The notes beneath the pieces are model-generated. The model searched no databases. It was not told the DNA's origin and saw nothing but the letters and a program-made list of their open reading frames with translations. Both the position numbers and the translations under genes were made by a program. This document shows, one piece after another, positions 391 through 25,579 of a stretch of DNA of 37,634 nt; the stretch's first letter is position 1, and the number at the start of each line of letters is the position of its first letter. Source of the DNA: an uncultured Porphyromonadaceae bacterium (GTDB lineage Bacteria > Bacteroidota > Bacteroidia > Bacteroidales > Muribaculaceae); contig CAMJZI010000010.1 in assembly GCA_946410185.1 (NCBI GenBank), positions 1 to 37,634 of the forward strand, given 5' to 3'.

Positions 391-2100
391 ATGAACATCC
401 TCAAAAGGTTCTCTATCGCTAATTGGAGCCGGCAGTTCGCAACGAGTTGTCGACGCTTTCCTGTGGCCCTGTGCCTGTTGTTATTCCTGACCTGTTTTCT
501 TGTTTTTATGAATCATGGGGGCAAGGTGGAAAGCCATTGGCAGTTTTTCTATATATTTTATCCGGCTACCGGCGCACTGCTGGCTGTGTCGCTGCGGTTA
601 CTCACCGAGGATTTCAAGAGCCGTGTCATGTCAGTCGTTACCCAGGTGGTGGCTCATGCGGCATGGCTGGGTATCTCGGTTTACTTGACGCAGTTTGACA
701 AGTTCTCTCTGCCACAGTTCATCGCGGTGGCCGCAACCATTGTTACGATGGTGCTGTCGGTGTTTCTGCTGTGTTTCTACCGCAGGAATGATGATGTGCC
801 GTTCTGGAACTTCTCGGTAAACGTGCTGGTGGCCATTGGTGCCGGTTGCATTGTTGGAGGAGTGCTCACGCTGGGACTCATCTTGTTTGTTCAGTCTCTT
901 GACTGGCTGTTCGGTATCAGCATCGATGATTGCGTCTTTGCCGACATCCCGTCGGTGTGCATGGTTTTGCTGGCTCCACTGCTGACCATGAACCTGATTC
1001 CAGACGGTGAGGACAAGCGCATCAGTCAGGTGGCATCCTATCCGGGCTTTATCAATGGTGTGATTCAGTACCTGTTCATTCCGCTATTGCTTTTATACAT
1101 GGCGACGCTTTACATCTACGCCATCAAGATCTTGACCTCCTGGCAACTGCCTGTGGGATGGGTGTGTTATCTGGTGTCGGCCAGCATGCTGGGCATGGTT
1201 GCCGTGATTTACTTGACCTATCCCTTGCAGCACGAGCAGGGCAACACCTTCTTCAGGCAAGTGACTCGCTGGATGCCGCTGGCGATGATTCCGCTGTTGG
1301 CGTTGATGACGGTCGCCATCGGCCGGCGCCTGAGTGACTATGGCATCACGGTGAGCCGCCTTTATGTGCTGGTATTCAACATCTGGTGTTATGTGGTGTG
1401 CATCGGGCTGTTATTGGTGCGCAACAAGCGCATCTGGTGGGTTCCCGCCTTGTTTGCCGTCGTGCTTTTCCTGATTTCGGTGGGGCCACAATCCATCCCT
1501 AACATCACGCAGCGCCAATTGTTGGACGAGGCGCGTAAGGCTTTTGCCGCAACAGTAGCCGGGCAACTGCCCCTCAGCGGGGAGCAGTATAACCGGTGGC
1601 TGGACAGTGTGGACCCGAAGGTCGCTGCCGCTATCGACGGAAAACTCGACTATCTGGACCGTGATTTCGGCTATGTGAGTGTCAGCGCTCTGGTAGGGCG
1701 CGATGTGATCACTGGCGCCTATTCGATCGAGAAAGGGGCGGTCGATTACACATTGGTGAACCTGAATTATTACAACAATGACATGATAGCCGCTGTGATA
1801 ATCCCTCAGGGCTTTACCACAGTCAGCGTGGTCAATGTCCAAATCGATACTACCCTGGAAAAAGGCAATGACAAATTACAACTCATCGTCGAGTCGCCAA
1901 TCGATGCCCACAAGGAGTATCGCTTTGAACTCACCATCAAGCAGTTTGCCGATCTTGACAAAGAGAAGAACCCTGATAGAGTGCAACCAATTGTTGCACG
2001 CAATCAAGAAGCAGTCTTGATGATTAATCAATACGCGTTCCACATTTACGGGAACTTGAATTGCAGTGTCACCTGTTCGGGCATCTTGTTTACCCGATAG
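391..2100 (+). CDS. DUF4153-family multi-pass membrane protein
   Basis: A 569-residue inner-membrane protein of unknown biochemical function. The first two thirds contain about ten to twelve hydrophobic segments, for example around residues 24-40, 100-120, 140-165, 225-240, 260-275, 297-312 and 325-365. The last ~170 residues are a soluble domain with several VSV/VNV beta-strand-like stretches, probably periplasmic. The architecture and length fit the DUF4153 family, common in Bacteroidales. An in-frame GTG lies 9 nt upstream (382), but the ATG at 391 gives MNILKRFSI, a normal start for a membrane protein. It is monocistronic and followed by a strong hairpin terminator. The family name is recognition from sequence, not a search result. 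Confidence 0.72.
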   Translation: MNILKRFSIANWSRQFATSCRRFPVALCLLLFLTCFLVFMNHGGKVESHWQFFYIFYPATGALLAVSLRLLTEDFKSRVMSVVTQVVAHAAWLGISVYLTQFDKFSLPQFIAVAATIVTMVLSVFLLCFYRRNDDVPFWNFSVNVLVAIGAGCIVGGVLTLGLILFVQSLDWLFGISIDDCVFADIPSVCMVLLAPLLTMNLIPDGEDKRISQVASYPGFINGVIQYLFIPLLLLYMATLYIYAIKILTSWQLPVGWVCYLVSASMLGMVAVIYLTYPLQHEQGNTFFRQVTRWMPLAMIPLLALMTVAIGRRLSDYGITVSRLYVLVFNIWCYVVCIGLLLVRNKRIWWVPALFAVVLFLISVGPQSIPNITQRQLLDEARKAFAATVAGQLPLSGEQYNRWLDSVDPKVAAAIDGKLDYLDRDFGYVSVSALVGRDVITGAYSIEKGAVDYTLVNLNYYNNDMIAAVIIPQGFTTVSVVNVQIDTTLEKGNDKLQLIVESPIDAHKEYRFELTIKQFADLDKEKNPDRVQPIVARNQEAVLMINQYAFHIYGNLNCSVTCSGILFTR

Positions 2101-2127
2101 ACTGCTGCATGAACAGACAACAAACTG

Positions 2128-2172
2128 GCCCGGAAAAGTTACGGTTGTTGATAACTTTTTTCGGGCTTTTTT
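2128..2172 (+). terminator. Rho-independent terminator after the DUF4153 gene
   Basis: A 14-15 bp stem, GCCCGGAAAAGTTA (2128-2141) pairing with TAACTTTTTTCGGGC (2152-2166), encloses a 10-nt loop and is followed by a run of T (2167-2172). This is a textbook intrinsic terminator 28 nt after the stop codon. Confidence 0.88.
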
Positions 2173-2204
2173 GATGCCCGTATCATCACTTAGTAGTAAT
2201 TTTG
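2170..2204 (+). promoter_or_regulatory. Probable promoter of the secreted protein at 2230
   Basis: TAATTTTG (2197-2204) is a full match to the -7 box. The nearest TTTG (2170-2173) is 23 nt upstream, longer than the usual 19-21, so the -33 assignment is weak. The predicted leader is about 20 nt. Confidence 0.5.
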
Positions 2205-2229
2205 TAACATCAAATAATAATGTGTGCAA

Positions 2230-4206
2230 ATGAAGCGTTTTTTCTCGATTTTCTTGATGGCCATCTTGGCCTTTTCTGCATCAAGGGCGTCGGTTGTCAC
2301 CTTTGACTTCTCCACACCCGGGGGCATTACTGCGATGGGTTATCCAGTTCCTGCCCAAAGTTCTGCGACCAACCTCACCCAGGCTGGCCCCGTGACCGTC
2401 GACGGCGTGACACTGTCGGCTACCGACGGTGCCACCCCAACCCGCATCTGGAACTCGCAGGGCAATTACACGTTGCGCATCTATGTCGATGGCTCGATTA
2501 CCCTGTCGGTGGCCGAAGGCTCCATCGCGGGCATCACCGTCAATACCGCCAACTCGTCAAACTTTGACCTCATTGCCGACGTGGGCGACTACAGCGCCGA
2601 TGGCACTGTGGGTACCTGGACTGGTAGTGCGACGGCTGTGACGCTGACCCATGTGGGCTCCAAGAATGCCCAGGTGGCAAGCCTTGTGGTAACCACCAGT
2701 GCCGATGGACCCGGTGACGACCCCGAAGACCCTATCGACCCCAATATCGAGAAACTCGACTCGCTTCATCACTTGCCGGCCTTGGCCAATGGCACCCCAT
2801 TCCAGTTCACCAGCGACGTGTATGTCAACTACCAGTGGAATGATTACCTCTGGGTGATGCAACTCGACGATGAGGGTGAAGCCCTGGCAGCGCTCATCTA
2901 TGGCGACACGGGCAAGCAGTACCGCCTGGGGGTGGTGATTCCTGCTGGCTGGACAGGCAAAAAGGATACCTACAAGGGCATGGTCGAGGTGACCGATCCT
3001 GCTCACTTTGCCAACGCCAAGAACATTCTTGACGAGGATTATTACTCGGCATTTGATTGCACGGGTTATCTGGGTCATGTCGCCAATATCGAGAATGGTT
3101 GGGAAAACTATAAGGTCTTTTTTGATGGCGTTTGCCTGAGTGAAATCGATAGCAGGGGCAACTTCACCATCAAGAGCAACGAGACTGATGACGCAGGCAA
3201 CCCTGTTGAGGCCACGATGGCTGGATTTAACAAGTTTGGCATCGATTATCCCGTGGTGGATTCCACCGAGGTTTATTCTATCGAGGGCATGCTCATCAAC
3301 TACGACGGCAAGATGGAGTTCTATCCCATCAGCATCGCCAACGACCCCGGCACCCGCCTGTGGAAAGTGCTCTATGCTGGCGAGGATGGCGTTCAGTATA
3401 AACTGAATGACACCCTCTATGTCGCTGCTGCCGTTGATAGCGATGCTGGCAAGCTGGTTTATGTGACCGACAATGTGGACGAGATCTATTATGATTTATA
3501 TGCCGAGTGGGGCTATGCCGAATGGATGGCATGGTATCCCGATTGGATAGCACTCGATTGCTCGGGCGACGATCAGTTGTTTGCCGCTCTTGCCGATGAG
3601 CAGGTGCTTGCCCCTGGAACAGTCAAGGGTTCACTGGCCGATCGCATGACCAACCCGCGCCTGGTGCTCAACAGCACGCCTGTTGCACTCGAGGGCGTAG
3701 AATTGCCCACACTGACGCTGTTCCGTTATGACCTGAGTACCGATTACTTGACTGCCCTGGGTAGCGAAGTGGGACGTGCCGATGGCTATTTCTTCTATAA
3801 GGATGGACAGCCCTGCCTGTGCAGCGAACAGGACACCGTGGTTGTGAAGCTCAACTTTGACTACGCTCCGTCGCTCGAAGCCGAAATGGCTGCCAGAGAG
3901 GGCTTCTACTATGGCTTGCTGTGCGTCTTCACCCTGGATGAACCCTGGCAAGAGAACACCGAGGGCGCATCCATGCGCCGCATCCATGCCACCGACGATA
4001 ATTATTACACCAACTACACCATCCATCCGCTGGCTGTCCTCTCCTGCGCGGCCGTCGAGGAAATCAATGGCGATAACCAGGTGGTGGATGTGAAGTATGT
4101 GAGCCCCACTGGAATCGTGAGCAAGTTGCCACAGGACGGCATGAACATTATCGTCACGACCCACAGCGACGGTTCACGCACCACCGTGAAGCGCATGGGC
4201 CGTTAA
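2230..4206 (+). CDS. Large secreted protein of unknown function, Bacteroidales type
   Basis: A 658-residue exported protein. MKRFFSIFLMAILAFSASRA is a clear signal peptide, followed by a beta-rich domain (about residues 22-160) beginning VVTFDFSTPGG, a style common in Muribaculaceae secreted proteins. A D/P-rich linker (GPGDDPEDPIDP, about residues 157-168) leads to a long middle region rich in aromatic and acidic residues. The C-terminus reads PQDGMNIIVTTHSDGSRTT before a basic end. It resembles the short conserved tail at the end of many Bacteroidales secreted proteins, possibly a sorting or anchoring tail. An in-frame GTG at 2224 precedes the ATG chosen here. I recognise no catalytic motif and assign no function. 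Confidence 0.6.
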   Translation: MKRFFSIFLMAILAFSASRASVVTFDFSTPGGITAMGYPVPAQSSATNLTQAGPVTVDGVTLSATDGATPTRIWNSQGNYTLRIYVDGSITLSVAEGSIAGITVNTANSSNFDLIADVGDYSADGTVGTWTGSATAVTLTHVGSKNAQVASLVVTTSADGPGDDPEDPIDPNIEKLDSLHHLPALANGTPFQFTSDVYVNYQWNDYLWVMQLDDEGEALAALIYGDTGKQYRLGVVIPAGWTGKKDTYKGMVEVTDPAHFANAKNILDEDYYSAFDCTGYLGHVANIENGWENYKVFFDGVCLSEIDSRGNFTIKSNETDDAGNPVEATMAGFNKFGIDYPVVDSTEVYSIEGMLINYDGKMEFYPISIANDPGTRLWKVLYAGEDGVQYKLNDTLYVAAAVDSDAGKLVYVTDNVDEIYYDLYAEWGYAEWMAWYPDWIALDCSGDDQLFAALADEQVLAPGTVKGSLADRMTNPRLVLNSTPVALEGVELPTLTLFRYDLSTDYLTALGSEVGRADGYFFYKDGQPCLCSEQDTVVVKLNFDYAPSLEAEMAAREGFYYGLLCVFTLDEPWQENTEGASMRRIHATDDNYYTNYTIHPLAVLSCAAVEEINGDNQVVDVKYVSPTGIVSKLPQDGMNIIVTTHSDGSRTTVKRMGR

Positions 4207-18622: not shown

Positions 18623-19575
18623 TGAATAATTTGATCTCTCTTTATCCCTTGCTGTTAGGTTGGTTGCTGGACTATTTCATTGGCGACCCGTCACGGTTGC
18701 CGCATCCTGTTGTCTGGTTCGGCAGAATGATTTCGCGGGGCGAGCATCGACTCAATAAGGGTAGTCGTCGCATGGCCAAGGGCGCCGTGATGGCTGTGTT
18801 TCTCATTTTGATGGTGTATTTTGCCGTTTGGGGACTGAAACGCTTAATTCCCAACTTGGCGTTGTGGCTTGTGCTGGATACCATAATCATATTTTACTGT
18901 CTGGCGGGAACGACGCTTATCCGCGAGGTGCGAGACGTGTTCCTGGCACTGGACCGTTCTTTGGACGATGGGCGTAAACAAGTCGCCCGAATCGTTGGCC
19001 GTGATACCTCTCAACTCACAGCCCAGGAGGTGCGAACCGCAGCCCTCGAGACCCTGGCCGAAAACCTGAGCGACGGTGTTATCGCACCGCTCTTCTGGCT
19101 AGCCTTGCTGGGCACACCAGGCATGCTGGCCTACAAGATGGTCAACACTTTGGATTCGATGATTGGCTATCGTACCGAGCGCTATAAAGACTTCGGCTGC
19201 TGGGCCGCCCGCATCGATGACGTGGCAAACTACATTCCCGCTCGCCTGACCGCCCTGCTGATGGTCTTAGCATCTGGCAAACCGTCGCTTCTGAAATTCG
19301 TCTGGAAAAATGGTCGCAAACATGCCAGCCCAAACAGCGGCTACCCCGAGGCTGCCCTCGCCGGCATTCTCAACTGCCGTTTCGGTGGTCCTCACTACTA
19401 TTTCGGTGAACTCTTTGACAAGCCCTACATCGGCGAGAACGACCGCCCCCTCACGACCCCAGACATGCACAAGGCCGTACGCATCAACCGCCTCGCCGAA
19501 CTGATGATGCTCGCCTTGGTCCTGACCGGTTGGCTGTCGATGTGTTGCAAGCCTCTGGCTTGTATGGGCGTTTAG
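18619..19575 (+). CDS. cbiB: Adenosylcobinamide-phosphate synthase
   Basis: CbiB joins adenosylcobyric acid to the aminopropanol (phosphate) linker at the inner membrane. The 318-residue protein shows the family start LLGWLLDYFIGDP followed by LPHPVVWFGRMI. It also has TLAENLSDGVIAPLFW, KMVNTLDSMIGYRTERY, GWAARIDDVANYIPARLTA-like (here CWAARIDDVANYI) and SPNSGYPEAALAG. Four to five membrane segments are visible. It is the last gene of block 1, and its TAG overlaps the cobT TAA on the other strand. Confidence 0.95.
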   Translation: MMNNLISLYPLLLGWLLDYFIGDPSRLPHPVVWFGRMISRGEHRLNKGSRRMAKGAVMAVFLILMVYFAVWGLKRLIPNLALWLVLDTIIIFYCLAGTTLIREVRDVFLALDRSLDDGRKQVARIVGRDTSQLTAQEVRTAALETLAENLSDGVIAPLFWLALLGTPGMLAYKMVNTLDSMIGYRTERYKDFGCWAARIDDVANYIPARLTALLMVLASGKPSLLKFVWKNGRKHASPNSGYPEAALAGILNCRFGGPHYYFGELFDKPYIGENDRPLTTPDMHKAVRINRLAELMMLALVLTGWLSMCCKPLACMGV

Positions 19576-20615
19576 AAGTACTTGGTGATGTGGGCAGTGT
19601 CGAAGTTGTTCATCTCGTTGATCATGTGGACCGACGAGGCGATGATTGGGTAGGCGCATAGGGCACCGGTTCCCTCGCCAAGACGCAGCCCCAGATTGAG
19701 CAACGGTTTGGCATCCACGATGTCGAGCATACGACGGTGGCCGCTCTCGTCGCCGCAATGGGTGAAAATCATGTAATCCTGAGCGGCGGGGTAGAGGCGG
19801 ATGGCCGCGATGGCACAGGCCGTCATGATAAAGCCATCCACCAGCACGACGAGCCCCTTCTCGGCCCCGTGCAGCATCGCACCGATAGCCGTCACCATTT
19901 CATAGCCGCCAAAGTAGCGGATGGCGTTCTCGACGGTGTGCTCCATGGTCTCATGGTAATGCTTGAGTGCCTGACTCAAAACCTCGCGCTTATGCACGAT
20001 ACCGGGATGGTCAAGACCCGCTCCCGCACCGATGCACTCGTCAAGAGGGATGTTGCCAAACAGGCTCATCCAGATGCTTGACGGTGAAGTGTTTGCAATA
20101 CCCATTTCGCCGACACACAGCACCTGGCACCCCTCGGCTATGCAATCGTCCACTAGGTCAACGCCCGTCTGGATGGCGCGGTCAAATTCCTCTTGGCTCA
20201 TCGCCGGCTCATGCAGGAAATTGCGGGTGCCACGGGCAATTTTGCGGTCGATGATGCCCTCGACGGCACTCAGGTCGTAGTCCACGCCCGTATCAACGAT
20301 GCGCAATTTAAAGCCATGCTGGCGGCAAAACATGTTCACACCGCCACCGCCATGGGTGAAGTTGATCATCTGCTGCCAGGTGACCTCGCGCGGTGACACG
20401 CTGACGCCTTCGCGCTCAATACCATGGTCACCGCCCAGTAGCAGATGGCACGGATGATTCAGGCTGGGCGACAGGGTCTGCTGGATAAGGCAAATCTGCA
20501 ATGCCAATTCTTCCAGCCGTCCCAGTGAGCCTTTGGGTTTGTTCAAGTGGTCGATTTTCTTCTGGATGCTCTGTGCCAGCTCCTTATCAGTGTAGTTGAT
20601 ATTGAATGATTTCAT
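19572..20615 (-). CDS. cobT: Nicotinate-nucleotide-dimethylbenzimidazole phosphoribosyltransferase
   Basis: CobT activates the lower-ligand base by making its alpha-ribotide. The protein is 347 residues. Visible motifs are LNKPKGSLGRLEELA at the N-terminus, GGDHGI and FTHGGGGVN, VGEMGIANTS, GAGAGLDHPG, GGYEMVTAIGAM and RLGEGTGA, in which Glu314 (Glu318 from the alternative start at 20627) matches the known catalytic base. The start MKSFNI fits relatives better than an in-frame ATG 12 nt upstream; the two ATGs lie in a duplicated AAACATGAAA context. It is the last gene of the cobS-cobC-cobU-cobT operon. Confidence 0.95.
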   Translation of the reverse strand: MKSFNINYTDKELAQSIQKKIDHLNKPKGSLGRLEELALQICLIQQTLSPSLNHPCHLLLGGDHGIEREGVSVSPREVTWQQMINFTHGGGGVNMFCRQHGFKLRIVDTGVDYDLSAVEGIIDRKIARGTRNFLHEPAMSQEEFDRAIQTGVDLVDDCIAEGCQVLCVGEMGIANTSPSSIWMSLFGNIPLDECIGAGAGLDHPGIVHKREVLSQALKHYHETMEHTVENAIRYFGGYEMVTAIGAMLHGAEKGLVVLVDGFIMTACAIAAIRLYPAAQDYMIFTHCGDESGHRRMLDIVDAKPLLNLGLRLGEGTGALCAYPIIASSVHMINEMNNFDTAHITKYF

Positions 20616-20627
20616 GTTTAGTTTCAT

Positions 20628-20672
20628 GTTTGGTTTCTAGATACTCCAGATTAACTAAATGCTCTAGAACTT
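20628..20672. repeat. TCTAGA-rich spacer between cobU and cobT
   Basis: Read on the minus strand, the spacer contains TTCTAGAG, a TTAGTTAATCT core and TATCTAGAAACCAAA just before the cobT start. A near copy (ATCTAGATTAACTAGAT and TATCTAGAAACAAA) lies before btuC at 23803-23841. The conserved 3' part adjoins the start codon in both. Confidence 0.55.
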
Positions 20673-21182
20673 CTAACCCTTAACTTTTACGGCTATTCCC
20701 GAGACCATTAGGATGACCTCGTCGGCACGGCTGGCTATGTACTGGTTCATCCAGCCTTGCAGGTCGGTAAATCGCCGTTGCACAGCATCAACACTCACGC
20801 CGCCGCTGCCAATTTCGTTGGTCACGAAGATAAAGGTGCCGTCATGGGCGGTGAAACGGTCAAACTCCTCTTTTGCAGCCTTCAGCGTCTTGTCAACATC
20901 TTGCTGTTCAAAGAAGAAATTGGTCAGCCACAGCGTCACGCAGTCGATAACGGCCACGCGCCCAGTCAGGTCATGTCGGCTCAGGTATTTTTCTTCCTCG
21001 ATGTTGGTCCATTGGGGCCCACGGCGCTCCTGGTGACGGTGCACCCGCTCGCGGAATTCCTCGTCCCACACATGTGCTGTAGCCACATATACAGGGCTAT
21101 CGGTGAGGCTCAAAGCCATTTCCTCGGCCTTCGAACTCTTGCCCGACCGTTGTCCGCCGGTAATCAGGATAATTTTACTCAT
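20673..21182 (-). CDS. cobU: Adenosylcobinamide kinase / phosphate guanylyltransferase
   Basis: CobU phosphorylates adenosylcobinamide and adds GMP from GTP, preparing it for CobS. The protein is 169 residues, close to the usual 170-180. It starts MSKIILITGGQRSGKS with the P-loop at residues 9-16. It also has VYVATAHVWDEEFRERVHRHQERR, which contains the guanylylated-His region, and VIDCVTLWLTN and FVTNEIGSGGVSVDAVQRRFTDLQGWMNQ. An upstream in-frame ATG at 21218 would add 12 residues with no family match, so 21182 was chosen. Confidence 0.95.
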   Translation of the reverse strand: MSKIILITGGQRSGKSSKAEEMALSLTDSPVYVATAHVWDEEFRERVHRHQERRGPQWTNIEEEKYLSRHDLTGRVAVIDCVTLWLTNFFFEQQDVDKTLKAAKEEFDRFTAHDGTFIFVTNEIGSGGVSVDAVQRRFTDLQGWMNQYIASRADEVILMVSGIAVKVKG

Positions 21183-21225
21183 TGTTATAGAATGATTCTC
21201 TATGACGTGGCATGCCACGGCCCTA

Positions 21226-21756
21226 TTATATTTTTATTAACATGTGCCCCCCGAAGGGTGATAGATTGCTCCATGCATCCTCCCATTGATATACCCCAGC
21301 ATAGAGGCCCGCGCTGATGAGTACCCCGCCATGAGCGAATATGCCAACCCGTTGATATCCTGTCCCTTTTAACTCATCCAGGAAACGGGCAACGCGATCA
21401 TATAGGTCGGGAAAAGCCTCGCCATCAGTCGTGGGCTGGTGCATGTAATCATTGTACCATTCTTGCAGGTGCGGGTCCTGGATTTCGTCATACAGCTGCA
21501 TTTCCCACTTGCCCATGTACATCTCCATCAGGCGGTCGTCGGTCTCGGCATCGGGATATCCACAGTAGTCAGCCAGTTTGCGAGCACGCGTCAGTGGCGA
21601 GGAAAACACCTTGTCAAACGGCAGGTATTGTTCGAGCGACTGGCGTGTTACCTCGGCCTCCTGCTCAAAGGTGTCACGCACGGGCACATCGGTCTGCCCG
21701 TAACACGTCCCCCGGGGGACATCGACGCTTGTATGCCTTACCAAGATAATTTCCAT
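21226..21756 (-). CDS. cobC: Alpha-ribazole phosphatase (histidine phosphatase fold)
   Basis: CobC removes the 5' phosphate from alpha-ribazole phosphate or from adenosylcobalamin phosphate. It is 176 residues long. The RHT motif near the N-terminus (EIILVRHTSVD) holds the phospho-accepting His. GQTDVPV, SSPLTRARKLADYC, a Glu in MEMYMGKWE and IFAHGGVL with the second His complete the family set. It belongs to block 2, between cobS and cobU. Family alone could mean another phosphoglycerate-mutase-like phosphatase; context favours CobC. Confidence 0.92.
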   Translation of the reverse strand: MEIILVRHTSVDVPRGTCYGQTDVPVRDTFEQEAEVTRQSLEQYLPFDKVFSSPLTRARKLADYCGYPDAETDDRLMEMYMGKWEMQLYDEIQDPHLQEWYNDYMHQPTTDGEAFPDLYDRVARFLDELKGTGYQRVGIFAHGGVLISAGLYAGVYQWEDAWSNLSPFGGHMLIKI

Positions 21757-21780
21757 TCTTTGTTGGTTATTGGTGATGAG

Positions 21781-22569
21781 TTAAAGGTTAATGACTTGGG
21801 CGCTGGCTACCAGATAGACGGCCAGCTCTACCAGCAGGCAAACCGCACCGCAGCAATCGCCCGTGTAGCCGCCTATCTTGTGCAAAATGAGAAGGTACAG
21901 GAAGTACATTACCACAGGGGGAATGGCGATCACAAGATACCAACTGATTCCTGTGAACCAAATCATCAATGCCATGGGCAACAATCCCTGGACTGTCAGG
22001 CTCACTCCCGCTGCCAGAGTGGGTTTGCGGTATATGGTTTTGTTCTTGGCTTCTTCCTCACGACGGGCATAGGGGAGTATGTTGATCAGTTGACTGGCAA
22101 CCATTTTTGAGAACGGGTCGGCAGCAAACACGGTTAGTGCAGCAACAAGTGGTGGCATGCTATAGAGTGCCGTTACTAAAAGCAGCATATAGACGATGAG
22201 GCCCAGCACACCATAGGTGCCGATGTGCGAGTCCTTCATGATGGCGAGGATGCGACTCCGGTCACCACCGCCGCCAAATCCGTCCAGGAAGTCGGCCAGG
22301 CCGTCCTCGTGCAGCGCCCCGGTAATGAGCAGCCTCACGGCAATCGCAGCAATCACTGCGACGGGCCACGGCATGATCATGCTGCCAAAATACAACGTGG
22401 CAGCCATGGCCCCACCTGTGAGCCACCCCGCCAGCGGCCAGTATTCAACTACAGCCTTGTAACTCGCTTGTGGGGGCTGATAAATACGCCATAACGGCAG
22501 CCGTGTGAAAAAAATCAGTGCCGCCCACACGTTGTCATGCCACTTGATTCTTGCTGCATTAACTTCCAT
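21781..22569 (-). CDS. cobS: Cobalamin synthase (adenosylcobinamide-GDP ribazoletransferase)
   Basis: CobS condenses adenosylcobinamide-GDP with alpha-ribazole (phosphate) in the inner membrane. The 262-residue protein has the family start WAALIFFTRLPLW, the Mg-binding block DGLADFLDGFGGGGDRSRIL and MKDSHIGTYG, and about six membrane segments. It is the first gene of block 2. The start codon lies 4 nt after a -7 box, so the transcript may be leaderless. It diverges from btuF. Confidence 0.95.
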   Translation of the reverse strand: MEVNAARIKWHDNVWAALIFFTRLPLWRIYQPPQASYKAVVEYWPLAGWLTGGAMAATLYFGSMIMPWPVAVIAAIAVRLLITGALHEDGLADFLDGFGGGGDRSRILAIMKDSHIGTYGVLGLIVYMLLLVTALYSMPPLVAALTVFAADPFSKMVASQLINILPYARREEEAKNKTIYRKPTLAAGVSLTVQGLLPMALMIWFTGISWYLVIAIPPVVMYFLYLLILHKIGGYTGDCCGAVCLLVELAVYLVASAQVINL

Positions 22570-22573
22570 GCTG

Positions 22574-22581
22574 CAAAATTA
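22574..22581 (-). promoter_or_regulatory. -7 box of the cobS operon, predicted leaderless start
   Basis: TAATTTTG on the minus strand ends 4 nt before the cobS ATG (22569). With a start site about 4 nt after the box, the mRNA would begin at or within a base of the start codon. No clear TTTG is seen at -33. Confidence 0.55.
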
Positions 22582-22658
22582 CAAAATAAAATCCATCTTC
22601 CCCCTATTTATGTAGGCTTTTAGGCCTTGTTAAACGCTTTTATCTCGCTAAAAAATGC

Positions 22659-22666
22659 TACCTTTG
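22659..22666 (+). promoter_or_regulatory. -7 box of the btuF-btuC operon
   Basis: TACCTTTG (22659-22666) matches the consensus and predicts a leader of about 23 nt before the btuF ATG. The -33 box is not clear. Confidence 0.6.
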
Positions 22667-22692
22667 CACCATTATTTAATACAATAACGAAA

Positions 22693-23793
22693 ATGAAGAA
22701 AATTTACGGAATCATAGCGGTTTTCTTGCTGTTGTGCTCCTGCACATCCCAGGGTAAGAAGCAGACCAATTCAAGTAATAACCAGTTGGCAGAAGTCACG
22801 GTGAAATATGCCACCGGGTTCAGTGTACGAGACTCAGCCGATATCCGATTGGTTGATGTGGGCAAGAAGGACCACTTTGCCCTTGTCCGTGATGCCGAGG
22901 TTACCGTGCCCGAGGGATACGTCAAGGTCAAAGTGCCCATCGAGCGCACCATCTGTATGACCTCGTTGCAGTTGTCTAACTTTACCATCCTTGAAGCCCA
23001 CGATGTGGTCAAGGGCATCACGGGCACCAAGAACCTTTTTAATGAGGATATCAAGACCCGCGTCAAGGACGGCCGCATCGTCAAGATTGGCATGGAAGGC
23101 GAATTTGATCCTGAGGTGGTCATGGCCGCCAATCCTGATGTTATCTTCATTTCACCCTCCAAGCGTGGCGGCTATGATGCCATCAAGGAAATTGGCATCA
23201 CACTTGTTCCCCATCTGGGCTACAAGGAACTCGACCCGCTGGGTCAGGCCGAGTGGATCAAGTTCATCGGCATGTTTATCGGCAAGGAGAAAGAGGCTGC
23301 AGAAATCTTCGCCGGCATCGAGAGCCGTTACAATGAGTTGAAGGAGAAGGCCGCCAAGGTCGAGACCCGTCCCACCGTCACCAGCGGCGAGATGCATTAC
23401 GGCAACTGGCACGCTGTGGGTGGCAAGAATTATCTGGCACAGATTTTCCGCGACGCAGGTGCCGACTATGTCATCAACGATGATGAGACCTCAGGCGAGG
23501 ATCTCGAGTTTGAAAAGATGTATGCCCTGTCGGCCAACGCTGACTACTGGCGAATCCTCAATAGCTATCCTGGCGAGTTCTCATATGATGCCCTCAAGGC
23601 CTCAGAACCCCGCAACGAGATGTTCAAGGCATTTAAGGAGAAAAAGGTCATCTACTGCAACATGAAGCAAACGCCCTACTACGAAATCGCTCCCGTCAAG
23701 CCTGATGTGCTACTCAAGGACTTCGTCGCCATCTTCCATCCCGAACTGGTCGAGAAGGACTACCAGCCCACCTTTTACCACTTGCTTCAATAA
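22693..23793 (+). CDS. btuF: ABC importer substrate-binding lipoprotein, probably for corrinoid
   Basis: A 366-residue periplasmic-binding lipoprotein of the BtuF/FepB class. The N-terminus MKKIYGIIAVFLLLCSC has a lipobox with Cys17. The two-lobed fold is supported by RTICMTSLQLSNFTIL, the NPDVIFISPSKRG segment and later VTSGEMHYGNWHAVGGKNYLA. An in-frame ATG 66 nt upstream falls before the promoter -7 box, so it is rejected. Substrate is inferred from position between cobS and a BtuC-type permease; iron-siderophore or haem relatives have the same fold. It is separated from btuC by a 54-nt repeat-rich spacer. Confidence 0.8.
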   Translation: MKKIYGIIAVFLLLCSCTSQGKKQTNSSNNQLAEVTVKYATGFSVRDSADIRLVDVGKKDHFALVRDAEVTVPEGYVKVKVPIERTICMTSLQLSNFTILEAHDVVKGITGTKNLFNEDIKTRVKDGRIVKIGMEGEFDPEVVMAANPDVIFISPSKRGGYDAIKEIGITLVPHLGYKELDPLGQAEWIKFIGMFIGKEKEAAEIFAGIESRYNELKEKAAKVETRPTVTSGEMHYGNWHAVGGKNYLAQIFRDAGADYVINDDETSGEDLEFEKMYALSANADYWRILNSYPGEFSYDALKASEPRNEMFKAFKEKKVIYCNMKQTPYYEIAPVKPDVLLKDFVAIFHPELVEKDYQPTFYHLLQ

Positions 23794-23847
23794 GTCTAAA
23801 CCATCTAGATTAACTAGATTTTCTATAATATCTAGAAACAAAGAAAT
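23794..23847. repeat. TCTAGA-rich spacer between btuF and btuC
   Basis: The spacer holds ATCTAGATTAACTAGAT (23803-23819), a near palindrome, and TATCTAGAAACAAA directly before the btuC start. It is a variant of the cobU-cobT spacer at 20628-20672. Confidence 0.55.
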
Positions 23848-24879
23848 ATGAGACGCACGTTGCCCTTAATGCTTGCCCTTGTGGTCGCGATTGTCGTGCT
23901 GATGATTGTCAACTTGTTTATTGGCTCGGTCGAGATTCCCGTTGCCGACATCTGTCGTATCTTGGTCGGGCAGGGTAGTGAGAGCGAAATCTGGACCAAC
24001 ATCATCCTCAGTTCCCGTCTGCCGCAGGTCCTGACCGCTATCGTGGCCGGTGCCGGACTGGCCGTGAGCGGCCTGATGATGCAGACCATCTTCCACAACC
24101 CGCTGGCAGGCCCGTCTATTTTGGGTATCTCCAACGGTGCCAGTCTGGGCGTGGCCTTTGTAGTGTTGCTGTCGGGGCAATTGGGTGGTGTGGCATTAAG
24201 CAGTTTGGGCTATCTGGGTGACGCTGCCGTCTCGGTGGCAGCCATCATAGGAGCCCTGGCCGTGATGATGCTCATTGTGTGGATCTCAGGCAAAGTCAAG
24301 GGTAATGTCACCTTGCTGATTATCGGTGTAATGATCGGTTATCTGGCCACTGCCATCATCGGTGTGCTCAAGTTTCTCAGTCCCGAGGAGGACGTGAAGG
24401 CCTTCGTCGTGTGGGGACTCGGGTCGTTCTCCCGTGTGTCGGGCGACGAGATGATACTTTTTGTCATGCTCATGTGCATCCTGCTGCCATTGAGTTTCCT
24501 GTTGGTCAAGCCGCTGAACGCCATGCTACTGGGCGACCGTTATGCCGCCAACCTGGGCGTGAACGTCAAGCGGGCTCGCACATGGATCATCGTATGCTCG
24601 GGCACGCTGGTCGCCATCGTCACGGCCTATTGTGGCCCCATCATGTTCCTCGGTATGGCCGTGCCCCATCTGGCCCGTGGCATCTTCCGCACCAGTGACC
24701 ACTGGCGGCTCATGCCCGCGACAGCCCTCTGTGGTGCCGCCTTGGCCTTAATCTGTAACCTGATTGCCCGTGCTCCAGGCTTCGAGGGTGCCATGCCCGT
24801 CAACAGCGTTACCGCCCTTGTCGGTGCCCCTATCATCATCTACGTCCTCTATCACCGCCGCAAAACCTCCTACGAGTAG
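23848..24879 (+). CDS. btuC: ABC importer permease, FecCD/BtuC family
   Basis: A 343-residue inner-membrane permease with about ten membrane segments. Family motifs are LSSRLPQVLTAIVAGAGLAVSG, QTIFHNPLAGPSILGISNGASLG, WGLGSF, and the coupling segment GPIMFLGMAVPHLAR that contacts the ATPase. It works with the binding protein upstream. The partner ATPase (BtuD) does not follow; instead, the last 30 bp of the gene are repeated 701 bp downstream at the far side of a toxin-antitoxin insert. The coding end (TAC GAG stop) is unchanged except that TAA became TAG. Confidence 0.88.
   Translation: MRRTLPLMLALVVAIVVLMIVNLFIGSVEIPVADICRILVGQGSESEIWTNIILSSRLPQVLTAIVAGAGLAVSGLMMQTIFHNPLAGPSILGISNGASLGVAFVVLLSGQLGGVALSSLGYLGDAAVSVAAIIGALAVMMLIVWISGKVKGNVTLLIIGVMIGYLATAIIGVLKFLSPEEDVKAFVVWGLGSFSRVSGDEMILFVMLMCILLPLSFLLVKPLNAMLLGDRYAANLGVNVKRARTWIIVCSGTLVAIVTAYCGPIMFLGMAVPHLARGIFRTSDHWRLMPATALCGAALALICNLIARAPGFEGAMPVNSVTALVGAPIIIYVLYHRRKTSYE
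24849..24878 (+). repeat. 30-bp direct repeat, copy 1 (end of btuC)
   Basis: This sequence begins ctatcaccgc and ends cctacgagta. It is perfectly repeated at 25550-25579. Copy 1 is the functional 3' end of btuC and includes the first two bases of its stop codon. Confidence 0.97.
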
Positions 24880-24964
24880 CCAGGCTCTTCAAGATAATGC
24901 AATAATTATTGAGTGCTAATTAGTTAATATCTAACTTAATACCTTGTTCATTCAAGGACTGTTC

Positions 24965-25243
24965 CTATTTAGCGTAATGAAAACGCATGGATAGGACATA
25001 GACATAAATCTTTCCCTTACTGACAGAATAGACAAGACGATGCTCATCTGTGATGCGGCGACTCCACAAACCATGTTGCTCACCTTTTAATGGCTCGGGT
25101 TTCCCTATGCCATCAAATGGATGTTGGACAATGTCGGCCAACAAGGCCGAGATACGTTTCATTATTCGCTTGTTGCCCGTTCTTTTCCAATAGTCTCGGT
25201 CAGCAAGGGCTTGGGGAGTAGGACTATTTCCATAGTTCATCAA
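24965..25243 (-). CDS. yoeB: YoeB/Txe-family mRNA interferase toxin
   Basis: A 92-residue ribosome-dependent RNase toxin. The core reads DYWKRTGNKRIMKRISALL, then HPFDGIGKPEPLKGE and WSRRITDEHRLVYSV, and ends FHYAK. The Glu in KPEPLK, the Arg in SRRITDEHR and the terminal His-Tyr correspond to the catalytic Glu46, Arg65, His83 and Tyr84 of E. coli YoeB, so the active site looks intact. It overlaps the antitoxin gene by 20 bp. Either of two adjacent ATG codons could be the start. Confidence 0.92.
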   Translation of the reverse strand: MMNYGNSPTPQALADRDYWKRTGNKRIMKRISALLADIVQHPFDGIGKPEPLKGEQHGLWSRRITDEHRLVYSVSKGKIYVYVLSMRFHYAK

Positions 25244-25463
25244 GTTCTACTACTTGTCCGTTGCCGTTCTTGATATCTTCTTGACCTTGTCGGATTATAT
25301 CAGCCATGGCTGGCGAAGACATCAGGTACTCCGTTTCATCCATCGCCTGTTTTTTTGCGGTAAGCTTTTTCGCATACTTCAATAATTTCCGCATCAAACC
25401 CTCGTCCTCGGCTATGATACTTAGCTCTCGGAAAAGTTCAGCATTCATTTCTACCGGTGTCAT
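25224..25463 (-). CDS. Antitoxin partner of the YoeB-type toxin
   Basis: A 79-residue acidic protein encoded just upstream of and overlapping the toxin, the usual order for type II modules. The C-terminus ETEYLMSSPAMADIIRQGQE followed by VVELDELWK resembles toxin-neutralising tails of YefM-like antitoxins common in Bacteroidetes. The N-terminus (MTPVEMNAELFRELSIIAEDEG) is helical and does not look like a standard Phd/YefM DNA-binding fold, so autorepression is uncertain. An alternative start is the ATG at 25448. Confidence 0.82.
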   Translation of the reverse strand: MTPVEMNAELFRELSIIAEDEGLMRKLLKYAKKLTAKKQAMDETEYLMSSPAMADIIRQGQEDIKNGNGQVVELDELWK

Positions 25464-25501
25464 AATTGTATTCTTTTAGTGAGCTTGATTATTTTGTAGT
25501 G

Positions 25502-25533
25502 CAAAGATAATCAATTATTCACAGATACACAAA
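25502..25533 (-). promoter_or_regulatory. Promoter of the toxin-antitoxin operon
   Basis: On the minus strand TTTG (25530-25533), exactly 20 nt, and TATCTTTG (25502-25509) form a full-consensus promoter inside the insert. Leader length is about 35 nt. The module therefore brings its own promoter. Confidence 0.82.
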
Positions 25534-25549
25534 TCTTGCACCATTTTAA

Positions 25550-25579
25550 CTATCACCGCCGCAAAACCTCCTACGAGTA
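25550..25579 (+). repeat. 30-bp direct repeat, copy 2
   Basis: Perfect copy of 24849-24878. It is followed by a, completing TAA, which would be the ancestral btuC stop. It lies 4 bp before the stop of the convergent gene. Confidence 0.97.

Follow-up and report, generated by a model that had tools for sequence, protein, structure and literature searches.

The mechanism by which toxin-antitoxin (TA) systems integrate has not been elucidated, according to the accessible text of a review (PMC7167474). Direct repeats flanking a mycoplasma TA pair have been noted as recombination scars in the available part of another report (PMC8562856), and IS1549 and IS1634 are accompanied by direct repeats that can be long and range in size from 8 to 514 bp, for which the accessible portion of the paper proposes no mechanism (PMC2266710). 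In the open-licence literature, as far as its accessible text extends, we found no report of TA modules with long target duplications that had been checked against TA-less relatives.

We analyzed a window of 37,634 nucleotides (the whole stretch of DNA under study, contig 10 of a 1.84-Mb genome that is 62% complete and in 117 contigs) and conclude that one of its segments is probably a minimal TA cassette that entered at the btuC 3′ end and duplicated 30 bp of the target, by a process that recurs in the Bacteroidales examined. The relevant features, in window coordinates, are the following.

19573..19640, minus strand: 3′ end of cobT, in a single copy, with cobD/cbiB behind it
23848..24879, plus strand: btuC (FecCD-type permease), intact open reading frame; PF01032, E 3e-77
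24849..24878, plus strand: repeat copy 1, the btuC 3′ end through the second base of the stop codon
24879..25549, minus strand: putative inserted cassette of 671 bp, the interval between both copies, with the TA pair and short flanks
24965..25243, minus strand: YoeB-type toxin, 91-92 aa; PF06769, TIGR02116, 2a6q_E
25224..25463, minus strand: antitoxin candidate, 79 aa, an open reading frame upstream of and overlapping the toxin start
25502..25533, minus strand: promoter-like TTTG-N20-TATCTTTG inside the cassette, 5′ of the 79-aa partner, read from the sequence
25550..25579, plus strand: repeat copy 2, the duplicated btuC 3′ end; the following A completes TAA
25584..26732, minus strand: convergent LRR/dockerin gene, ending 3 bp from the TAA of copy 2; PF13306, PF00404, open reading frame

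The initial annotation had described a complete YoeB-type module between identical 30-bp stretches, with btuC left intact, and these observations were borne out. Positions 24849-24878, the final 30 bp of btuC short of its last base, are found again at 25550-25579 with an identity of 30/30 bp. The btuC end reads CTATCACCGCCGCAAAACCTCCTACGAGTA followed by G, which gives the stop codon TAG and the full open reading frame 23848..24879, and the same 30 bases in the second copy are followed by A, which completes TAA 3 bp from the end of the convergent gene (25584), again as first read. When the last 180 bp of btuC were compared with the window's own genome, we obtained two good matches (the 24849 and 25550 copies) and one weak match elsewhere (E 0.08), and the 731-bp unit of repeats and cassette occurred only once.

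The toxin scored 97.3 bits against PF06769 (cut-off 27, E 5e-28) and 96.1 bits against TIGR02116 (cut-off 51.8), and its residues 13-89 aligned with the E. coli YoeB chain 2a6q_E (E 3e-19). The overlapping 79-aa partner had no match to any Pfam family, and a YefM/PhD-type identity found no backing in NCBIfam, where the one match, below the cut-off, was to an unrelated protein. Of 39 GTDB loci compared by tblastn, 32 have a YoeB relative 3′ of the antitoxin relative and in the same orientation (the toxin match at one of them, L220, spans only 21 aa), and none was found at the other seven. No further open reading frame of at least 60 aa occurs between the repeats and hence no integrase or transposase gene, in agreement with the earlier description of a minimal cassette at a gene end without such an enzyme of its own; the YoeB toxin and the 79-aa partner are plausibly its only genes. 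Upstream of the partner, TTTG (25533-25530), a 20-bp spacer and TATCTTTG (25509-25502) on the minus strand form a promoter-like arrangement, and TTTG-N20-TATCTTTG presumably fits the Bacteroidota promoter consensus. Judged from its sequence, the toxin is a common YoeB type whose partner falls into no known class; the unusual part is the manner in which this module and others like it entered.

The closest relatives of the module in named records are from metagenome genomes of Prevotellaceae and Bacteroidaceae, many of them from ruminants. Besides the window, G137 alone matched the module DNA over most of its length among 397 genomes of the family, and this closest relative in the genus (88-89% protein identity) lies at a different locus without repeats. 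A phage or plasmid carrier of the antitoxin was also considered and rejected, as none of 26 candidate stretches in viral contigs was confirmed, phage records gave no match, and the single plasmid match was just 48% identical. The 30-mer was absent from the viral contigs searched.

At other loci, filled sites could be compared with relatives in which the TA pair is missing. In L282, a PIN-type pair lies behind cobT and the last 69 bp of cobT, including the stop codon, are repeated after the pair, while all sites compared (11/11, the window's own cobT included) hold one copy of the cobT end; cobD is directly next in three of them (the window, G129 and G134), and other sequence comes first or instead elsewhere. 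By this comparison, the window's own genome shows one of the unoccupied forms of the cobT end at which G034 has its PIN-type TA insertion. The repeat of L113, 31 bp with a -7-like promoter element and the leader of a helicase gene, is found once between the same neighbours in the TA-less relatives L349, L350 and L373, and once in L357 as far as that partly masked site is readable. In L120 the repeat is a 47-bp terminator, present in one copy in L309 and in a weaker one in L343; L344, at the same site, has the module with a diverged repeat pair. The L252 repeat consists of 86 bp of a gene end and terminator, and L352, L354, L355 and L356 have this gene end once, with the TA pair unmatched in the ~0.5 kb behind it, L356 additionally matching the far flank of L252. 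Since the TA-less relatives of L113, L120, L252 and L282 hold one copy, we read these alignments as showing that a TA cassette arrived and its target was doubled at all four loci, with the same footprint seen elsewhere. In the case of L250 and L271, only one of the neighbours accompanied the single copy.

Seven GTDB repeats each occurred exactly twice in the 1.2 Mb searched. Those of L113, L120, L250, L252, L271, L282 and L417 were found twice at their own place in a search of 2.1 Mb, their further matches being single copies in related empty sites only. L143, L159, L245 and L418 were less clean in this search. Over both searches, the repeats of 14 loci besides the window did not recur at one another's loci. 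In the loci analyzed, the repeat is a copy of the local sequence, be it a gene end, a terminator or a promoter. The repeated piece is a promoter region in L250 and L417, and the 45-bp repeat of L417 extends from its -7-like element as far as the start codon, which would leave a copy each to the new pair and the old gene. L417 (1192-1806) is a tight ParE-type insertion, in which one repeat gives the promoter element, leader and start and the next begins with the toxin stop codon. Because the duplicated pieces are gene ends, terminators or promoters, they are often what keeps both neighbours working, and we take these neighbour-sparing duplications to reflect selection on where insertions survive.

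At btuC itself, we brought 40 relatives with the gene into one orientation for a comparison across about 6 kb, and 39 of them have their own btuC tail in one copy with varied genes behind it. The empty btuC-LRR site that the initial annotation had expected did not appear, as a close LRR relative adjoins btuC at 0 of the 40 btuC loci and no joined btuC-LRR match was among the matches listed for 101 genomes, of which 60 represent further members of the genus. The cobT and btuC ends belong to one gene cluster (window 19387-24879) and are variable junctions in the genus, the genes behind them varying between relatives. The remaining relative, G025, has a duplicated btuC tail around a different module, in the order btuC, DUF4160-type pair, 142-bp copy, pair fragment and third short copy. 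Pfam identified DUF4160 in this pair and gave no match for the partner, and the 142-bp copy corresponds to the btuC end and downstream sequence with 96% identity, so the same gene end took an unrelated module and was doubled. In L010 of G025 (1950-3230), the same place as L083, the three copies of the btuC 3′ end surround the DUF4160-type pair and its fragment. The G025 arrangement looks like a decayed or partial tandem array, and the gene end concerned is the one that is duplicated in the window.

Such an array is what would be expected if a tandem duplication running from inside btuC through the TA pair had been followed by deletion of the second TA, leaving an orphan btuC end. We consider this history unlikely for the window, because no TA remnant lies behind copy 2, which ends at a natural stop 3 bp from the LRR stop, as would be expected of an original junction, and because the single-copy TA-less relatives at L113, L120, L252 and L282 require one insertion event only. 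Insertion with target duplication, by comparison, is well supported.

A shade less probable than tandem duplication is one-sided homologous recombination, in which a donor gives the gene together with the TA and the far end joins illegitimately inside the recipient gene end. L109 (1234-2183) has a 65-bp copy of the 3′ end of a receptor-like gene beside its TA pair. The TA of this locus adjoins the same gene in G032 and G019 without a second copy, and the extra 65-bp copy is contiguous with a flank also present in G024, which has no such TA there; L109 looks like a better fit to one-sided recombination than to simple insertion. The cobT tail of L282 differs from that of L347, another species, at just 2/69 positions, and from its own second copy at 1/69, so identity alone is no argument against a donor-borne copy at that locus. 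In L252, however, both copies share non-coding sequence that is absent from the relatives compared, so the second copy would have come from the same or a very close genome, a same-species donor being possible. The homology-based entry with a donor-borne repeat that was first suggested is therefore unlikely as a general rule, although L109 may fit it. For the window, insertion of the cassette with duplication of its target is the reading that we prefer.

In a survey of 120 distinct TA modules of the YoeB, RelE/ParE, DUF4160 and PIN types, 21 lay between direct repeats 30-279 bp long. These modules were left from 176 entries after 29 were dropped with a contig end too near and 27 with an identical 60-bp module start already counted, a rule that also merged a few modules whose sites differ (L109 and L221, for example). 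We kept 39 of 55 GTDB loci with an antitoxin relative, plus the window, and omitted 16 (L224 and L227-L241, with a partial match or at most 49% identity) before the repeat search. A direct repeat of at least 42 bits spanned 7 of these 39 loci, which had enough flank, and 6 of the 35 GTDB modules that were distinct after de-duplication; the idea that related modules elsewhere are flanked by other repeats thus held for these six and not for the other 29. With the same test and an added limit of 84% identity, repeats spanned, in the genus, 3/20 other antitoxin relatives (8 more cut by contig ends), 2/22 YoeB toxins (6 cut), 6/22 DUF4160 (8 cut), 1/16 PIN (2 cut) and 6/26 ParE loci (4 cut).

Control windows of 500 bp from 18 arbitrary 20-kb stretches, not matched for accessory genes, were spanned in 6 of 3258 cases with 700-bp flanks and in 12 of 3114 with 1100-bp flanks, all of the positive ones, at both flank sizes, coming from the same two stretches. 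Control windows within the same GTDB loci, scored with no identity limit, were spanned in 25 of 1516 cases, and the strongest match among them (L221, 98% over 174 bp) in fact encloses a PIN gene and a partner ORF. This PIN-domain toxin gene and its partner (L221, 2060-3600) lie between direct repeats of 174-199 bp that are 92-98% identical, about 1.4 kb from the YoeB module. Acetyltransferase loci gave 0/25 (5 cut; P 0.025, weak on its own), and btuC-tail loci gave 0/20 as a second control that depends on the finding itself. A spanning repeat was found at 0/7 E. coli K-12 modules, too few to call the process confined to Bacteroidales. Among the 21 positives, L143, L159, L269, L418 and L419 are weaker, being hairpins or dispersed-looking, and L245 and L248 share a locus, so we judge that roughly 14-16 cases are independent. 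The repeats of L143 (1240-2542) and L269 (1146-2205) share the motif AAAGCCTGCTTACGCAGGAAA and may represent a dispersed non-coding repeat family instead of target copies. No repeat was detectable at 99 of the 120 modules, which age or insertion without duplication would explain.

Homology among modules at unrelated loci mostly ends within about 200 bp of the genes, suggesting that the travelling unit is little more than the operon. We compared the ends of 12 cassettes of 525-1113 bp, part of the repeat-flanked set, and found that the longest end-to-end inverted match averaged 4.7 against 4.3 for random sequence and that pairwise end matches were no longer than random; neither terminal inverted repeats nor common ends were found in these 12. 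Transposon-like ends were rejected on this basis. The site-specific recombination proposed in the initial annotation was also discarded, as each locus has a repeat of different sequence and length and no ends are shared among the 12 cassettes. The cassettes of L269 and L271 are 91% identical at different sites and end on one side at nearly the same base, indicating that cassette ends are not always free.

TA genes are present in Xer-mobilised pdif modules. An integrase or transposase acting in trans, from an integrative island, a pdif/Xer module or an IS like IS1549 or IS1634, would be an improbable source of the window repeats: the direct repeats of 8 to 514 bp given for these two elements in the accessible portion of their description (PMC2266710) would suit it, but the repeat sequence differs among loci, the 12 cassettes lack terminal inverted repeats and common ends, and the window cassette has no integrase or transposase gene. 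Chance or an assembly artefact is the least credible reading of all: although the window comes from an incomplete genome that is fragmented into 117 contigs, an exact 30-bp repeat within 700-bp flanks has an E value of 1e-11, and filled sites in separate assemblies retain both copies (L252/L353 and L120/L344).

In the explanation that we prefer, a cassette with the YoeB toxin, the antitoxin candidate and its own promoter-like site would have entered at the btuC 3′ end, where it now occupies 24879-25549, and 30 bp of the target would have been doubled, leaving btuC complete at one edge of the cassette and an orphan copy of 30 bp at the far edge. Small TA modules of several unrelated families would insert in this manner at gene boundaries in these Bacteroidales and duplicate a piece of the target that has no fixed length, about 30 to 130 bp or longer. 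Repeats and cassettes alike vary in sequence and length and the window cassette has no enzyme gene, from which we infer that the joining is illegitimate; the varied repeat lengths, and ends that are in general not fixed, likewise argue against a dedicated recombinase. A replication fork or repair synthesis may switch to TA DNA and return upstream of its departure point, or TA DNA may be caught in a widely staggered break that is then filled in, and either template switching with a back-step or staggered-break fill-in would account for insertion and duplication by a single event. Those duplications that leave both neighbours unharmed would survive, and the cassette would be kept despite its repeats because losing the TA pair poisons the cell, which makes addiction a plausible, if likewise inferred, reason for its persistence.

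The repeat copies of L252 (G042) match at 85/86 positions (99%) and those of L353 (G116) at 92% of 132, each within its own genome, and the non-coding half of the copies differs between the two genomes. L252 and L353 appear to have a common insertion, and this pattern suggests that the copies convert each other in place while the TA stays, which fits the prediction of an addiction lock; two independent insertions are the alternative. More tentatively, and as a possibility on which we would not insist, small TA modules of several families may be enzyme-free mobile cassettes that spread between loci by illegitimate copying or joining and duplicate 30 to >100 bp of their target, often a gene end, terminator or promoter whose second copy mends the damage; the direct repeats, though unstable, would then last because the modules punish their own deletion.

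Where TA-less relatives have a single copy, the target duplications are a direct record of TA integration, and TA pairs between copies of the local sequence could be the footprint of movement without a jumping-gene enzyme. Such footprints can help to date insertions, define cassette borders and show which sites are tolerant. They also make the addiction idea testable, as direct repeats less than 1 kb apart should be deleted quickly unless the intervening DNA is protected.

Compared with known systems, the window module resembles Txe/YoeB type II modules in its toxin family and its two-gene operon, with the antitoxin candidate first and the genes overlapping, but its partner has no Pfam family and the module is flanked by a duplicated target. 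Like horizontally gained chromosomal TA modules, the modules have a patchy distribution and are inserted between conserved genes. The mycoplasma TA pair differs in that the repeats described here were compared with single-copy TA-less relatives and across several TA families. As in integrative elements at gene 3′ ends, the gene end is rebuilt and a second copy lies on the far side; in contrast to them, there is no integrase here, target and repeat vary by locus, and promoters and terminators also serve as targets. Judged from the differing repeats, no common site flanks the modules as in pdif (XerC/XerD) modules. Direct repeats of variable length are shared with IS1549 and IS1634 (30 to 279 bp here), whereas the window cassette has no transposase, terminal inverted repeats or fixed ends.
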